From an uncultured Bacilli bacterium (GTDB taxonomy: Bacteria; Bacillota_I; Bacilli_A; RFN20; CAG-826): 64,000 bases of DNA. The translations under genes were made by a program, and so were the position numbers. This document shows positions 1,875 to 9,666 of this stretch, piece by piece (within the stretch, counting starts at the first letter, position 1; every line of letters begins with the position of its first letter). The stretch is from positions 1 to 64,000 of the forward strand of contig CAJOMQ010000012.1 in assembly GCA_905236715.1 (NCBI GenBank), given 5' to 3'. The notes under the pieces were generated by a model. It worked only from the letters and a program-made list of their open reading frames with translations, had not been told where the DNA came from and did not search any database.

Positions 1875-2479
1875 TTCTTAGAAAAATAATTATTAATGAT
1901 AAAGAAGAGGTGTATGAACCAATCTCAAAAGAAGATGCTTTAAAACTTGATGATAAAAGCATTTTAACATTCACCAGCGAAGATGAAGAAGATGAATTTG
2001 AAGAACTATTAGAAGAAATGGAAAATCCTGAAGATGACGAAGAACCATTCGTTAAAGTTGATGGAGTTCGTATTATTAACAAACATAAAAAGCATTCCAA
2101 AAAAGGAAGTAACAAAATAATCGCTTTGTTGCCATTTATGGAGGATGAGGAAATCCACGAAATAGTGGAATTAATTCTCAACAATTCAGAAGATTACAAG
2201 GATCTCCCTCTTGTTGCTGTCATGCCGTTTCTTAGCGATGAAGATTGTGATGCTTTATTCATGAAATTTGTCGTTGAGGAAAAGTATCAAGATGACATTG
2301 AATTAAGTTCGCTCGCTCCGTTTGTCAGTGAAGAATGTTTATCTAAATTAGTGGATGCCTATATTGAAGGGAAATATCCTAATCTTGAATTAGATGATTT
2401 GTATCCATTTATGTCATTAAAGGATGTGAAGAAATTATTTAGATTCTTTATTCAAAAACGCAAAGAAGAAAAAGAATAA
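1871..2479 (+). CDS. acidic protein with four PF(M/L/V) helical repeats
   Basis: This 202-aa protein is not a family I can name. The N-terminal half is very acidic (runs of D and E near residues 35-60). From about residue 80 a roughly 30-aa unit repeats four times, each opening with a hydrophobic residue, x, then PF: LLPFMEDEE, VMPFLSDED, LAPFVSEEC and LYPFMSLKD, followed by an amphipathic helix. This looks like a small alpha-solenoid, a protein-binding scaffold. Four-base overlap with the upstream HTH gene suggests the repeats sense or bind a partner and relay it to the regulator. That role is inference. Confidence 0.7.
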   Translation: MILRKIIINDKEEVYEPISKEDALKLDDKSILTFTSEDEEDEFEELLEEMENPEDDEEPFVKVDGVRIINKHKKHSKKGSNKIIALLPFMEDEEIHEIVELILNNSEDYKDLPLVAVMPFLSDEDCDALFMKFVVEEKYQDDIELSSLAPFVSEECLSKLVDAYIEGKYPNLELDDLYPFMSLKDVKKLFRFFIQKRKEEKE

Positions 2480-2550
2480 TTTCTAATGCAAGTAAGATAG
2501 GTTAGTTGTGCTAGAAAAGGACTAATACAAAATATTAAAGCAAATCGGAT

Positions 2551-2578
2551 GAGGCTCACTTAACGGTGGGTCTTTTTT
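2551..2578 (+). terminator. intrinsic terminator
   Basis: GGCTCAC/GTGGGTC pair over a six-base loop and are followed by TTTTTT. It ends the HTH/repeat-protein transcript. Confidence 0.75.
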
Positions 2579-2680
2579 CTTGACCTCGGTACTGGCTATG
2601 ATACAATAAATAAAGTCCAAAAGTTGATATTAGAATTTCCATCAACTTATGGCTCGAAACTCCATACCCGCCCTTCAAAA

Positions 2681-2745
2681 TTGGGTGCAAAATTGGGTGC
2701 AAATACCTTGATTGGGTGCAACTTCACATAGTGATTGGGTGCAAT
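2681..2745 (+). repeat. four direct copies of ATTGGGTGCAA
   Basis: The 11-mer ATTGGGTGCAA starts at 2681, 2693, 2712 and 2735 and ends just before the long direct repeat. The spacing is irregular (12, 19 and 23). The purpose is unknown; it could be a binding-site cluster or the decayed end of a mobile element. Confidence 0.7.
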
Positions 2746-2747
2746 TG

Positions 2748-3015
2748 TATCAAAATGGTTAAATGGAGACACCAAGAATGAAAATGCTCCCTAAATTTGG
2801 ACCAAATCTGAAGTGAACCCAATTTATTGGACAAGCTCAAAATTAGGGAAAAGATATGGGAAAATAGATGAAAAGTTTGACATTCTGATAACATCAGGAT
2901 GTTTTTCTACCTATAAGCTTTCATGGCATATAAAGCAAAATAAAAAAGCGTTATATTGTTACATTTCTTTGAAAAAAACATGAGAAGGATATCTGACCCT
3001 GAATTAGTAAGGAAT
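2748..3015 (+). repeat. long direct repeat, copy 1
   Basis: About 270 bases that recur at 3877-4146. The last ~214 bases (2802-3015 against 3931-4145) are nearly identical; the first ~55 have diverged. Each copy holds a hairpin ACATTCTG/CAGGATGT (or its variant) followed by T, a terminator-like structure. The two copies flank the DUF3800 gene. Confidence 0.9.
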
Positions 3016-3032
3016 TACTTGTAATATTTTTC

Positions 3033-3062
3033 TTGACATAGTGCTGAATGACAAATGATAAT
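3033..3062 (+). promoter_or_regulatory. promoter of the DUF3800 transcript
   Basis: A perfect -35 TTGACA (3033-3038) is followed, 18 bases on, by GATAAT (3057-3062). The predicted transcription start, about 3069, falls at the front of the structured leader. Confidence 0.6.
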
Positions 3063-3066
3063 ATAC

Positions 3067-3128
3067 ATGGGCTGAGGAATTCCTCTAGGTCCACCGAAAC
3101 GCGGGAGTACTTCCGCATTTTTATTTAC
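3067..3128 (+). ncRNA. structured leader RNA upstream of DUF3800 gene
   Basis: Two compact hairpins lie between the predicted transcription start and the ATG. The first is GAGG-AATT-CCTC; the second is GCGGGA-GTAC-TTCCGC, followed by ATTTTTATTT. Conserved RNA motifs named DUF3800-I onward are known to precede DUF3800 genes in many bacteria; assigning this leader to that group is inference from position and shape. I cannot say which class it is. Confidence 0.5.
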
Positions 3129-3793
3129 ATGAAAAAGGAATTGTCTATTTACGTTGACGAAACTGGTGATTTTGGACCATATGATTCTAATGCAAAAATC
3201 TATGGAGTGGCTTTCGTTTTGTGTGAAGATTTAGATAAATGCGACCCATATTTAAGGAGATTTCATAGAAGATTAAAAGGAAAAGAAGCTGGCGATTTTC
3301 CAATACATGTTGGTCCATTAATTAGAAGGGAAGACCCATACAGCGAATTAAACTATGAGTCACGTCTAGTTTTATTTGATATTATTTTGACTTATTTATC
3401 GATTCACCTATTAGCATATTGACCACAAAAGTTAGGAAAAGCGATAAATCTACTGACGAAGAAATGGCTAAAGCTCTATCTAGATTAGTTAGAGACAATA
3501 TCCATTATTTTGAATCATTCGATAAAATCAATGTTTATTATGATAACGGTCAATCACAATTAAGATCATTGCTACTAGGTATTTTTAGCGCCAATTTTTT
3601 ATATTTTGAAATGATATTAGCTAGACAAAGCGAGCATCCATTTATGCAATTAGCGGATTTAGTGGCCTCATTAGTCTTGCTCGACTATAAAACTAAAGAA
3701 GGAAATCTAACCGCAAGCGAAAATGAATTTTTTGCCGGAAGAAGAAAACTTAAAAAGGTCTATTTATCAGCATTAAAAAAGAAGTCAAAATAG
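3129..3793 (+). pseudogene. DUF3800 protein, interrupted by a frameshift
   Basis: The N-terminal half (IYVDETGDFG, then IYGVAFVL) carries the DUF3800 signature with the acidic DET motif of an RNase H-like nuclease fold. The C-terminal half (EHPFMQLADLVASL) is the second conserved block. The halves are in different frames: the first stops at 3420-3422, while the second is open through and before 3419. One missing base near 3400 would rejoin them into about 222 aa. It may be real decay or an assembly error. The start ATG at 3129 fits the conserved N-terminus. DUF3800 proteins are common in mobile and defence contexts, and this one lies between long direct repeats. Confidence 0.75.
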
Positions 3794-3876
3794 AAACCAT
3801 TCATCAATGAGATGAAACAAAATAATACAGTAAAAGTATCAAGACCACGGACTTTAAAGCATGAGAATAAAATTGA

Positions 3877-4146
3877 CTATCAAAATTGGTAAATTGAGAC
3901 ATGTCGGTGAAACTTCCCCCAAAATTTTGCCCAAATCTGAAGTGAAACCACTTTATTGGACAAGCTCAAAATTAGGGAAAAGATATGGGAAAATAGATGA
4001 AAAGTGTGACATTCTGGTAACATCAGGATGTCTTTTTTTCTGCCTATAAGCTTTCACAGCATATAAAGCAAAATAGAAAGCGTTATATTGTTACATTTCT
4101 TTGAAAAAACATGAGCAGGGTATCTGACCCTGAATTAGTAAGGAAC
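3877..4146 (+). repeat. long direct repeat, copy 2
   Basis: Second copy of the repeat at 2748-3015, with single-base changes and small indels. It begins about 83 bases after the DUF3800 stop. The copies could have arisen by duplication during insertion of the DUF3800 cassette, or could be a family of small non-coding repeats into which it fell. Confidence 0.9.
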
Positions 4147-4229
4147 TATTGCTAAAATCATCATGGAGATATTTGCGAGTATAAAATATAATTAAGTTTA
4201 ATAACGTAGAAAAGATTTTCATTCGCAAT

Positions 4230-5996
4230 ATGGACGAAAACAAATTTTTATCAAATCAACGAAAAAAAGTTGGCTTATCCCAAAATGATATTGGCGAACA
4301 GTTGGGATACACTCCGCAGATGGTTTCCTTTTGGGAAAGTGGCAAAGGTTTTCCTAATTTATCAACTTGGAGCAAGTATGCTTCTCTTTTGCAAATTGAT
4401 TTAGAAGGCTTGATAAAACATAAGGAGCAAAAAACTAACAACAATTGCGATAATGCTAAGTTTGATAGTGACAAATTTAAGAAAAATTTAAAAAAGATAA
4501 GAATATCATCCAATTTGACACAGATTGAATTGAGCAAAAGAATTAAGGTAAATAATAAAACCGTGTCATCTTGGGAAAACGGCTTATCCTTCCCAACTTT
4601 AGAACAATTCGTCCGTTTGTGTGATGTTTTTAATGTAAGTTTTGATGACCTATATTTTGCAATACCCCTTTCTTCTACCACTAAATCCGCTAATAAAAGA
4701 AAAAAGACATTATTAGTTACTATGATTCCTATTGGATCATTATTGTTGTCCATAGCAGCAGCCATTGCTGTAGTCAGCGTTGTAAAGAATAAAAATAACG
4801 CAAACGTTAATCCAAACACTCAATTAGAAACCAATAATTCATATCATTTTGATGATGAATATCACTGGAAAGAAAATGATAATGGCGACATTACCGAAAA
4901 AGAAAAACACGTATTTGACGCTGTTAAAACAAAAAATGAAACTTGCACTGAGGATGGGGAAATAACTTATACCTGTTTAACTTGTGGTTTTCAAAAAACC
5001 GAAAAAGTGGAAAAAAGTGGTCATCAAAACGATGGGGTGTGGCATTTCAATGAGACACAACATTATCATCTTTGTGCTACTGATAATGTCAGATTCGATA
5101 TTGCTTCCCATAATTTTGATAGTGGAACTGTTTTTGAAGATAATGGTAAAAAGAAAATCCTGTACCATTGTTTAATTTGTGACTATCAACAAAATAGTGA
5201 TTTATCGGATTATGTAGAAACAGGAGAATATTTATATTTTGGTAACTATCCGCAAAATAGAGTTACTGATGAACTAATCATTAATGATTTAAACTCCTTA
5301 CCGGAAACCGAGGATGGGAAATATTATTATTTGAATGACCAGTATTATGCGAAAGTAAGTGCTAGCCTAAGCGCCCTTTCTTATGAATCTTGTAATGTTT
5401 TTAAAGATGGCCTGAAGGTCAATGAAGGCGAAACATATTGGTTCAATGTACAACCTATAGAATGGAAAATATTGGAAAAAACAGATGATTATTATTTATT
5501 ACTTTCAAATATTGTCTTAGACTCTGGGCCATTTTTAAAAGATGAAAGCAATAATTATTGTAATTCTTCTGCTAGACAATGGCTTAATTCTTCTTTCTAT
5601 GATGTTGCCTTTGATGATAAAGACTCTATTATCAACACGGAAGTGGATAATTCTTTAGCATCCACAAAATGTGAAAGCAACTCATTTGTTTGTGATAACA
5701 CTAACGACAATGTGTACTTACCTAGTCGCAAAGATTTAAAAAGCGCCGATTATGGTTTTATAGAAGGATATTTAGGAATTCTCAATGAAACCGTAGCCGC
5801 CCAATATAGTGATTACGCATTAGCGAATGGTCTCACCGTTCTTCATAACAAATATTCATATTATTACACAAGAACTTCCGGAGAAGACTCCTCTCGGAAT
5901 TGTTATGTGGTTGATGAATTTGGCTCAATTATATCATTATATTTAATTGACAATTTATCTCTTGGCTATCGTCCAATGATTAAAATTTCTCGTTAA
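4230..5996 (+). CDS. membrane-tethered double-HTH protein with extracellular DUF6273 domain
   Basis: The protein is 588 aa. Residues 5-60 and 82-143 are two separate Cro/C1-type HTH domains, each with the WE(S/N)G turn. Residues 160-185 form a single membrane helix after a KRKK stop. Residues 205-320 contain spaced CxxC pairs (TCLTCGF, HCLICDY) like a repeated zinc-ribbon or disulfide unit. Residues 333-588 are a DUF6273 domain (YLYFGNYPQN, then ARQWLNSSFYD, then YRPMI). The order suggests a one-component transmembrane sensor with DNA binding inside and sensing outside. The ATG at 4230 has no evident Shine-Dalgarno site. The closing DUF6273 motifs match two lipoproteins downstream, hinting at shared ligands. 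Confidence 0.85.
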   Translation: MDENKFLSNQRKKVGLSQNDIGEQLGYTPQMVSFWESGKGFPNLSTWSKYASLLQIDLEGLIKHKEQKTNNNCDNAKFDSDKFKKNLKKIRISSNLTQIELSKRIKVNNKTVSSWENGLSFPTLEQFVRLCDVFNVSFDDLYFAIPLSSTTKSANKRKKTLLVTMIPIGSLLLSIAAAIAVVSVVKNKNNANVNPNTQLETNNSYHFDDEYHWKENDNGDITEKEKHVFDAVKTKNETCTEDGEITYTCLTCGFQKTEKVEKSGHQNDGVWHFNETQHYHLCATDNVRFDIASHNFDSGTVFEDNGKKKILYHCLICDYQQNSDLSDYVETGEYLYFGNYPQNRVTDELIINDLNSLPETEDGKYYYLNDQYYAKVSASLSALSYESCNVFKDGLKVNEGETYWFNVQPIEWKILEKTDDYYLLLSNIVLDSGPFLKDESNNYCNSSARQWLNSSFYDVAFDDKDSIINTEVDNSLASTKCESNSFVCDNTNDNVYLPSRKDLKSADYGFIEGYLGILNETVAAQYSDYALANGLTVLHNKYSYYYTRTSGEDSSRNCYVVDEFGSIISLYLIDNLSLGYRPMIKISR

Positions 5997-8439: not shown

Positions 8440-9666
8440 ATGCATGTGAGTGCTCGCATCTCTCTCTATACAATTTCATATATGAAATGTAAAAATTATA
8501 AATGCGTTGAGGAAGAATTTTGGAAATTAACCAATAGACTTATTTTTAATTTGAGTAAGCAAGAAGAAATAACGGAAATAATGTCCAAAAGCGATTTAAT
8601 CAGTGGAGATTGGCATGACCGGGACAATACCGATCTGATCGACTCCAAAGATCGTATCATTTCTTCGTTTTTGACAAATTTAAACGGCATCAAAGAAAGA
8701 TACGACTGCCTACTTTTTAAATGCAAACCAATAATTGGGAATACCGCTAGTGGATTGCTTGATTTAATGGATGGTGAAGAGATAAATTATGATAACGGAC
8801 TGATTTGTTTGATGGCTAAATGCAACTCGCTTATGAACGTTTTCCTGTGCACTTGTTTTGTTGAAAAAGAATTATCTAGCCTTGATGAAATTCATAAATA
8901 TCCATTTGGAAATGTTAAGAAATCATATTTTAGAGGGCAATGCAATTACGATTTTGGCTTACTCCCTAGCTTTTATAGAGGATTGACCATAGATGGCGGC
9001 CGAAAAGAGATCACTGTTGAATTTATTCAGCAAAGATACGATGAACTTGGAATATTGGAAAAGTACCATAGTTTGTTTGGTGAAGAAAACAGATTTTCAA
9101 AAGACATTCTCGAATATGCTCAACACACGATTGCCTATTCGCCTTTGCTAGATGTCTCTGAATCAAAAGAAATTGCAACCATTTTCGCCACTTCATCTCG
9201 CGGGTTGAACCCCAACGATTATTTAAGTAACGACGCTAGTCTATATTGTTTTTATGTTTTCAACCATCCTGGACAAAGTGGCGAAAGAACACAGTTGAGC
9301 TTGGAAAATATGCGAGTCTTATATTTGCCAAGAAAAATAAAATATGACGAGCAAATAAGGAATAAGCATTTATATGAGATGAGCTATAAAGATTTTAAGA
9401 TTAGATACCATTTTACAAATAGTCAGACAAATGATCGAGCCAAGATTCAGCAAGGGCATTTTTTCTTCCTCATCGATGGTTGCATCATCAACGGCCATTT
9501 GCTCATCCCTTTTAACCAAATGGAAATTGTTAAATATAAGATTGACAAGAAATATAAAAAAGATATTTATACGGAAATCGTCACGAGAAACAAACAATAT
9601 GATATCGAATCGCTCATGAATCCTTATTCATATTTTTCGGATTATTCTTTCAAATCGAAATCGTAG
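8440..9666 (+). CDS. FRG domain protein
   Basis: The protein is 408 aa. Residues ~165-185 (YFRGQCNYDFGLLPSFYRG) and ~225-250 (YAQHTIAYSPLLDVSESKEIATIFATS) are the hallmark blocks of the FRG domain (PF08867), named for its F/Y-R-G triad. FRG proteins are frequent on genomic islands and resemble toxin or defence effectors, but no reaction is established to my knowledge. The N-terminal 150 residues are helical and unknown. No Shine-Dalgarno site is clear; residue 15 (ATG at 8482) is an alternative start. The next gene, a DUF6273 lipoprotein, begins 12 bases later. Confidence 0.8.
   Translation: MHVSARISLYTISYMKCKNYKCVEEEFWKLTNRLIFNLSKQEEITEIMSKSDLISGDWHDRDNTDLIDSKDRIISSFLTNLNGIKERYDCLLFKCKPIIGNTASGLLDLMDGEEINYDNGLICLMAKCNSLMNVFLCTCFVEKELSSLDEIHKYPFGNVKKSYFRGQCNYDFGLLPSFYRGLTIDGGRKEITVEFIQQRYDELGILEKYHSLFGEENRFSKDILEYAQHTIAYSPLLDVSESKEIATIFATSSRGLNPNDYLSNDASLYCFYVFNHPGQSGERTQLSLENMRVLYLPRKIKYDEQIRNKHLYEMSYKDFKIRYHFTNSQTNDRAKIQQGHFFFLIDGCIINGHLLIPFNQMEIVKYKIDKKYKKDIYTEIVTRNKQYDIESLMNPYSYFSDYSFKSKS

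Follow-up and report, generated by a model that had tools for sequence, protein, structure and literature searches.

A frameshifted DUF3800 gene behind a terminator-ended, DUF3800-XI-like leader RNA, lying between relics of AbiEi-like genes in an uncultured Bacilli bacterium

DUF3800 genes and the RNA leaders that precede them have reportedly been an unexplained pair since the motifs were first described. The locus analyzed here raises two questions about this pair: what the leader RNA does beside the gene, and whether the two direct repeats that surround both are the ends of a mobile cassette. The locus lies near the start of a 64,000-nucleotide stretch of DNA (the window) from an uncultured Bacilli bacterium with a 1.29 Mb draft genome in 25 contigs. 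Non-overlapping open reading frames (ORFs) of at least 90 amino acids, 57 in all, make up 86.6% of the window; one region, at 8440-9666 and 4.6 kb 3' of the unit, encodes an FRG-domain protein (Pfam PF08867, E 1.1e-9). An RNase H fold for DUF3800 and a link between DUF3800 and noncoding RNA are already in print, in the part of the source available to us (PMC10910872). The features of the locus are as follows.

2533..2778, no strand assigned: relic of a repeated element with four ATTGGGTGCAA boxes (2680-2744) and the end ..TATCAAAATGGTTAAATGGAGACA; matches L138 and L145
2748..3023, forward strand: direct repeat copy 1 (R1), by repeat comparison
2779..2841, no strand assigned: relic of an IS3-family terminal sequence within R1, present again at 3908-3970 in R2; matches L008 and L140
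2869..3021, forward strand: truncated upstream region and start of an AbiEi-like gene; 69.4% identity to L139, E 5.9e-13
2980..3024, forward strand: AbiEi stub in R1, 14 codons to a stop, reading MRRISDPELVRNYL; L139 reads MRRISDTELVRNYC and continues
3024..3793, forward strand: RNA and DUF3800 unit, promoter to stop codon; 86% identity to L088 over 3024-3783
3033..3062, forward strand: promoter TTGACA-18-GATAAT, by promoter scan and TATAAT counts in relatives
3066..3122, forward strand: structured leader RNA, DUF3800-XI-like, by Rfam, folding and covariation
3068..3093, forward strand: hairpin 1, stems 3068-3073/3088-3093 and 3074-3077/3082-3085, by folding and covariation
3101..3122, forward strand: hairpin 2 (3101-3106/3111-3116) with T-run, a predicted intrinsic terminator just 5' of the start codon at 3129
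3129..3422, forward strand: DUF3800 gene part 1, to the frameshift and an early stop, by ORFs, Pfam and comparison with L088
3395..3793, forward strand: DUF3800 gene part 2, in a different frame, by ORFs, Pfam and comparison with L088
3878..4148, forward strand: direct repeat copy 2 (R2), by repeat comparison
4008..4032, forward strand: terminator-like hairpin of R2, by terminator scan; same hairpin in L088 and L003
4111..4188, forward strand: AbiEi stub in R2, reading MSRVSDPELVRNYC, a stop, then NHHGDIC..; L139 reads MRRISDTELVRNYC ENHKGDIF; 69.9% DNA identity, E 3.3e-16

The original prediction described two near-identical direct repeats about 1.1 kb apart around a promoter, a structured leader and a DUF3800 gene, and this layout holds. 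The repeats at 2748-3023 and 3878-4148 are 88-91% identical: 88% over these wider limits, and 91% for 2779-3020 against 3908-4148 (query positions 1-239 of 242). Their start-to-start spacing is 1129-1133 nt, and between them stand, in order, the promoter, the two-hairpin leader, its terminator-like hairpin 2 and the DUF3800 gene from 3129. A terminator-like hairpin had been predicted for each repeat copy; our terminator scan flagged the one in R2 but not one in R1, and an equivalent of the R2 hairpin lies directly 3' of tRNA-Arg in both L088 and L003.

We searched for the repeat elsewhere, as had been proposed, and found no third copy in the source genome. Among 224 family genomes, with up to three candidates scored per genome, R1 matched in 10; outside the source genome all but one of these matches span only 27-59 nt, and no other genome holds such a repeat pair. 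The one long match, locus L139 in genome G157, is a single-copy site of the kind that the original prediction proposed to look for: the upstream region occurs once and leads into an intact ORF of 224 codons. This ORF (L139 378-1049) matches the PADLOC model AbiEi PDLC02251 at E 7.7e-12 and scores below the curated cut-offs in Pfam and NCBIfam. Both window repeats end within the first 14 codons of the AbiEi-like gene.

Other parts of the repeats and their surroundings match insertion sequences. Positions 2779-2806 match the left end of an IS3-type element in L008, and 2797-2840 are 91% identical (43 nt) to an element end in L140, where an ORF has an rve domain (E 1.8e-23). The element relic 5' of R1 is 86.5% identical to L138 (G108) over 2533-2806 and 93.6% identical to L145 (G235) over 2679-2787; its box array of four ATTGGGTGCAA copies may be of IS21 type. 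Because both repeats end in the first codons of AbiEi and hold IS ends, they are relics of two truncated AbiEi-like (antitoxin) genes joined to IS ends. They share with the AbiE type IV toxin-antitoxin system the AbiEi upstream region and first 14 codons, and differ from it in that stubs alone are left at the two window repeats.

The closest unit to that in the window lies in L088, a 10.6 kb locus from another genus, in a Bacilli assembly of roe deer origin (RGIG4495). Outside the unit, only the AbiEi upstream piece matches between L088 and the window. In L088 this piece, 91.9% identical to L139 over 111 nt, also precedes the unit; it lies 3' of tRNA-Leu and tRNA-Arg and is cut at a different point than in the window. 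No repeat copy was found on the downstream side of the L088 unit. Judged by these alignments, the window and L088 share a neighborhood, not a repeat-flanked cassette.

The gene itself was predicted as a DUF3800 gene with a DUF3800-type leader, and both are present; the prediction had missed a frameshift. The open frame is interrupted, with 3129-3422 in one frame and 3395-3793 in another, and Pfam PF12686 matches the two halves with 20.6 and 18.2 bits, each below the cut-off of 21. The intact orthologue in L088, of 221 residues, passes with 39.2 bits. Comparing the window with L088, dN/dS is 0.042 before the break (84 codons) and 0.057 after it (130 codons); because the ratio is low on both sides of the frameshift, the DUF3800 protein was under purifying selection until recently. 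We considered a programmed frameshift and set it aside as unneeded, since L088 reads the same stretch in one frame. The frameshift may be a one-base assembly error, although long open frames run through the remainder of the window. As it stands, the window unit has an intact promoter, RNA and terminator and a frameshifted gene. A second DUF3800 unit in the same genome (G000:C21; L037 2134-2242, L152) has a DUF3800-I leader of 84.5 bits and a gene that is likewise split between two frames. Where relatives found with the DUF3800 protein carry a name, they are Bacilli assemblies, and several come from the gut of ruminants or horses.

We modeled the L088 protein together with six relatives in AlphaFold2 (pLDDT 92.3, pTM 0.90); a sequence search for a solved structure gave none at E up to 1. 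The best Foldseek match of the L088 model is RNase HII (3p83_E; E 2.6e-5, TM 0.46, rmsd 9.0). VIA-align placed 160 residues of the model on RNase HII 1eke_B with a moderate Z of 9.4 (rmsd 3.7), and PIWI/Argonaute chains reached a Z of up to 8.6, also moderate. Residues D10, E11, D139 and D177 are invariant across seven DUF3800 sequences. In the model, D10 and E11 lie in strand 1, D139 just after strand 133-138 and D177 in helix 171-191; the acidic residues of RNase H folds sit at such positions, in strand 1, after a strand and in a helix. Searches of DUF3800 proteins gave zero matches in PADLOC (four proteins or parts) and in NCBIfam (three proteins). The protein has the same domain, PF12686, and the same RNase H fold as other DUF3800 proteins, including TPR-DUF3800 beside Cas12a2 in the available part of PMC10910872; unlike the latter it has about 221 residues, lacks the TPR part and comes with an RNA of its own.

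Immediately upstream, the predicted TTGACA promoter is present as TTGACA-18-GATAAT at 3033-3062, with 11 of 12 consensus positions. It is the best of 7 promoter-like sites in 2400-4400, a number that by itself is no evidence, as shuffles give 8.9; terminator-like sites in the same interval number 5 against 0.9 in shuffles. Relatives point to the same promoter position: 27 of 29 units have five or more of the six TATAAT bases immediately 5' of the leader, and 15 have all six, whereas control stretches from the same loci do so in 8% and 1% of cases. The leader (3062-3132) folds into two hairpins at -20.8 kcal/mol (z -2.6; one of 200 shuffles as stable).

The proposed Rfam check on the leader gave a DUF3800-XI (RF02975) match at 3068-3115 with 23.2 bits (E 0.016), which is below the gathering score of 37.8; near relatives do pass, L065 with 40.6 and L174 with 43.6 bits. 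A covariance model built from four leaders (the window and three relatives), labeled R1 like the repeat, finds L065 with 29.0 bits (E 2.1e-5), indicating homology to an accepted DUF3800-XI member. Across 30 distinct leaders, 99.3% of cells are paired (87.7% in shuffles), two-sided changes occur in 10 of 16 pairs (4.3 in shuffles) and the covariation score is 0.309 (0.112 in shuffles), in an alignment that is fitted to a covariance model, itself from four sequences, and so leans towards its own structure; sliding the partners of the stems abolishes the covariation signal. Folded singly, 31 of 31 leaders form hairpin 1 and a terminator-like hairpin 2, which is followed by a T-run (at least five T in eight) in 30 of 31 rows of alignment A11, L105 being the exception.

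Taken from these comparisons, the leader appears to be a diverged DUF3800-XI RNA of two covarying hairpins, the second a putative terminator, directly 3' of a promoter. It resembles DUF3800-XI RNA in a hairpin 1 with GGUCCACCGAAA on its 3' side and in its place directly 5' of a DUF3800 gene; it differs in its score and in the broken gene behind it. Because TATAAT lies just before the leader and a T-run follows hairpin 2, the RNA likely starts at hairpin 1 and, where the terminator works, ends about 55 nt later, a few bases 5' of the start codon.

How closely leader and gene are bound to each other can be judged from the 224 family genomes, in which strictly filtered searches scored 24 candidates per genome. 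The leader occurs at E 0.01 or better in 25 of them. It is absent from all five same-genus genomes, where the window's protein has no match either; a different DUF3800 match was found in G001. For counting we required a score of 30 bits or more and 700 nt or more of downstream sequence. Of 28 leaders with such a score, we excluded the weak leader L123 and two at contig ends, so that 25 were counted. Ten of these precede a full gene, five a partial or broken one (the window included) and ten no DUF3800 in the following 1500 nt, or in as much of them as is available. Genus g18 supplies 19 of the 25 and eight of the ten gene-less leaders, which are thus not independent. A total count of 38 leaders gives 20 with a full gene, six with a partial one and 12 with none, the tandem first leaders L131 and L066 having been scored as full through the gene behind the second leader, an artefact from which the 25-leader count is free. 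Not entered in the leader counts were L116, L117, L118, L132, L133, L134, L016, L059 and L061; six units were added from a DUF3800 protein search. Covariance-model searches find only leaders that keep their structure, and the survival of stand-alone leaders partly reflects this detectability.

Seen from the gene, the association is tighter: by eye, 18 of the 19 DUF3800 genes of this kind that could be tested follow a leader, whose first hairpin is a different one in three cases. L063 is a DUF3800 gene without a leader, and L062 lies at a contig end. DUF3800-I leaders above the gathering score have their gene in 17 of 20 cases. At 5 of 42 loci, two leaders lie on one strand within 2.5 kb. RhuM-like sequence lies 3' of two DUF3800-less leaders, L129 and L106 (by eye), and in L134 (G054:C14, 2220-3500) a DUF3800-XI-like leader of 24.5 bits precedes a Schlafen AlbA_2 / HATPase_c_4 gene, not DUF3800.

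Beyond the family, phages gave no match to the DNA, nor to the protein in 50,697 phage records, and on both counts we rejected a phage origin; six pattern hits in the viral_contigs set included no relative. Plasmids gave one distant match, in Collinsella. At L170 (Collinsella aerofaciens NZ_OY725717.1, 2900-3675) a distant DUF3800 relative (26.5%) with an in-frame stop in its gene lies near brxL; its leader has two hairpins and a T-run and scores below the gathering level of every Rfam family.

Several XI-like units lie close behind tRNA genes. With 28-45 tRNA genes in each of 16 genomes, at most about 1.5% of random places would be expected near one; of the 33 XI-like units with 600 nt or more of upstream sequence, 9 have a same-strand tRNA gene within 600 nt (binomial p 1e-9 against the 1.5% rate, a test that ignores intergenic siting and kinship). 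For DUF3800-I units the count is 1 of 18, and a Fisher test between the two kinds gives only p 0.06. All nine tRNA-proximal units are among the 22 with a gene or gene part; none of the 11 gene-less leaders lies near a tRNA gene, and this argues against a simple tRNA rule.

The sequence that related units have in common begins near the -35 box and reaches to where the RNA or the gene ends. Its left limit lies 39-56 nt 5' of the leader in many pairs, closer in some (-5 to -36) and more distant in others (-70 to -124). On the right, homology ends at the leader terminator or behind the gene; gene-bearing pairs have no common right end, their homology running out at distances between about 700 and 882 nt from the leader start. 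L065 (G144) and L106 (G189) have a common tRNA-Ser, flank and leader at 91.5% identity and diverge at the leader end, behind which L065 has DUF3800 and L106 a RhuM-like fragment (by eye). The first, gene-less leader of L106 has one change in its -10.

A 94 nt flank from behind tRNA-Trp in G187 occurs at nine places in 8 of the 224 genomes, four of them behind tRNA-Trp (ARAGORN). At these four, G187 has one leader and a full DUF3800 gene; G195 has a different leader (DUF3800-XI, 43.6 bits) and a DUF3800 start (by eye); G188 has no leader and IS3-like sequence on the other strand (by eye); and G249 has just 82 nt to the contig end. At the five places with no preceding tRNA, G196 (60 nt available) has leader 1 alone, then leader 2 with DUF3800, G132 contig 1 has leader 2 with DUF3800, and G132 contig 11, G200 and G189 contig 24 have no leader. 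Because tRNA-Trp precedes the flank at just four of nine places and G132 holds the flank twice without a tRNA, we rejected the idea that it marks one chromosomal site; the flank itself has been copied. Overall, these alignments suggest that the RNA-terminator-gene unit behaves like a cassette in the 224 family genomes, exchanged and often found beside tRNA genes.

Two further observations were made. Behind the copied flank in G132 contig 11 (L179, G132:C11, 1630-2285), RNA-like repeats spaced 31 nt apart are followed by a gene for a PBECR4-family nuclease (E 1.7e-13), an arrangement that looks like a type III toxin-antitoxin with a putative PBECR4 toxin; PADLOC gave no match there, and taken as one RNA the whole stretch shows no unusual stability (z -0.06). 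At 11 of the 19 places found in 95 genomes (L068-L086), an IS3-type end (TGAAA.TGCTCCCT.AATTTGGACCAA) lies 6-8 nt 3' of a tRNA gene on the same strand; by eye, a terminator-like hairpin can form within the first 60 nt of this end.

Our leading but tentative explanation, to which we give a probability of about 0.4, is that transcription yields a small RNA first and reaches the gene of an RNase H-fold nuclease by limited read-through, in an arrangement like that of type III toxin-antitoxin modules. Transcripts would begin with the first base of hairpin 1 and for the most part stop at the hairpin 2 terminator, giving a small RNA of about 55 nt, and the DUF3800 protein would be made from read-through alone. 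This protein, with its predicted RNase H fold and RNase HII-like DE residues, would most likely bind the leader RNA and be held in check by it. Were the nuclease costly and the RNA harmless, one would expect the gene to be broken or lost and the RNA kept, as in the window. We favor a type III-like working because the RNA comes first, then a terminator, then a nuclease, and because the RNA occurs without the gene, whereas a gene of this kind is hardly ever seen without the RNA. From this arrangement we infer a toxin-antitoxin role, and claim no membership in type III.

In type III modules a Rho-independent terminator separates the antitoxin RNA from the toxin gene (PMC5086642). The likeness to ToxIN, CptIN and TenpIN extends to the promoter, the structured RNA, a Rho-independent terminator (by sequence) and a nuclease gene, in the same order. 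The window differs in having one RNA unit of two hairpins, with no tandem repeats, and probably also in its predicted RNase H fold, best matched by RNase HII, where type III toxins have the ToxN/CptN/TenpN fold.

We count in favor of this explanation the covarying hairpins, the T-runs, the TATAAT boxes, the RNase H fold, the low dN/dS, the asymmetry between leader and gene, and the exchange of units. Against it we count the single structured leader unit where type III antitoxins have tandem repeats; the DUF3800-I leaders, which mostly keep their gene, so that a stand-alone RNA would not be general; the weight of genus g18 in the leader counts; the part that detectability may play in stand-alone leaders; and the change in the -10 of L106. 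A DUF3800 gene in Legionella pneumophila scored as essential in Tn-seq, the opposite of how a toxin gene behaves, though that gene may differ in subfamily and leader (PMC7811196). A more far-reaching version holds that DUF3800-XI-like units are terminator-gated RNA/RNase H-fold toxin-antitoxin or defense cassettes exchanged behind tRNA genes, with the RNA left as an immunity scar that acts in trans against incoming units; this we consider doubtful.

The counts of leaders and genes also bear on a leader that is a cis-acting attenuator only, in which the DUF3800 protein or another signal acting on hairpins 1 and 2 sets read-through. Such a switch would account for leaders placed directly 5' of the gene in nearly all testable cases and ending in a terminator-like hairpin, and for the gene retained behind most DUF3800-I leaders; it sits poorly with ten of 25 well-scoring leaders having no DUF3800, with paired leaders on one strand and with stems kept while the sequence behind them is swapped, and we judge it rather unlikely. 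That the RNA and protein form a defense ribonucleoprotein, the leader being a scaffold or activator of the nuclease somewhat like OMEGA RNAs, is distinctly unlikely to us: RNase HII and PIWI are the structural matches, DUF3800 proteins accompany Cas12a2 and some VI-F loci (available parts of PMC10910872 and PMC12669027) and the Collinsella relative lies near brxL, but no guide-like variable stretch was seen in an RNA of about 55 nt with most of its bases in two short hairpins, and PADLOC matched none of the four proteins or parts. The roles could also be reversed, with a harmful RNA that the DUF3800 protein cleaves or sequesters. The essential Legionella gene, listed with antitoxin genes among strain-specific essential genes in the available part of PMC7811196, would fit an antidote, yet leaders with no gene or a broken one, as in the window, keep their stems and mostly a -10-like hexamer, which makes this improbable.

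Two remaining explanations concern mobility. If DUF3800 were an RNase H-fold recombinase that mobilizes the unit, the leader would be part of one end; the recurrent homology start 39-56 nt before the leader and the different units behind one tRNA-Trp agree with this, while the scattered right ends, the varying left ends and the zero matches in phage records make it very improbable. The original prediction had the leader and gene move as a cassette, with the repeats around them. In relatives the leader and gene are indeed cassette-like; as for the repeats, which do flank the unit, that they are its ends is extremely improbable, since they consist of AbiEi 5' stubs and IS ends, their copies differ by 9-12% and no second such pair turned up at the candidates scored in the 224 genomes. 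L088, with no downstream copy, and L139, with a single copy and an intact gene, led us to reject them as cassette ends.

The available DUF3800 literature, a scope outside which the first motif description falls, does not describe stand-alone leaders or tRNA flanks. That leaders occur gene-less and in tandem, that a terminator precedes the gene and that units are exchanged behind tRNA genes all indicate an RNA that is probably itself a product and more than a switch. The natural pairs with and without the gene provide material for testing the role of this RNA.
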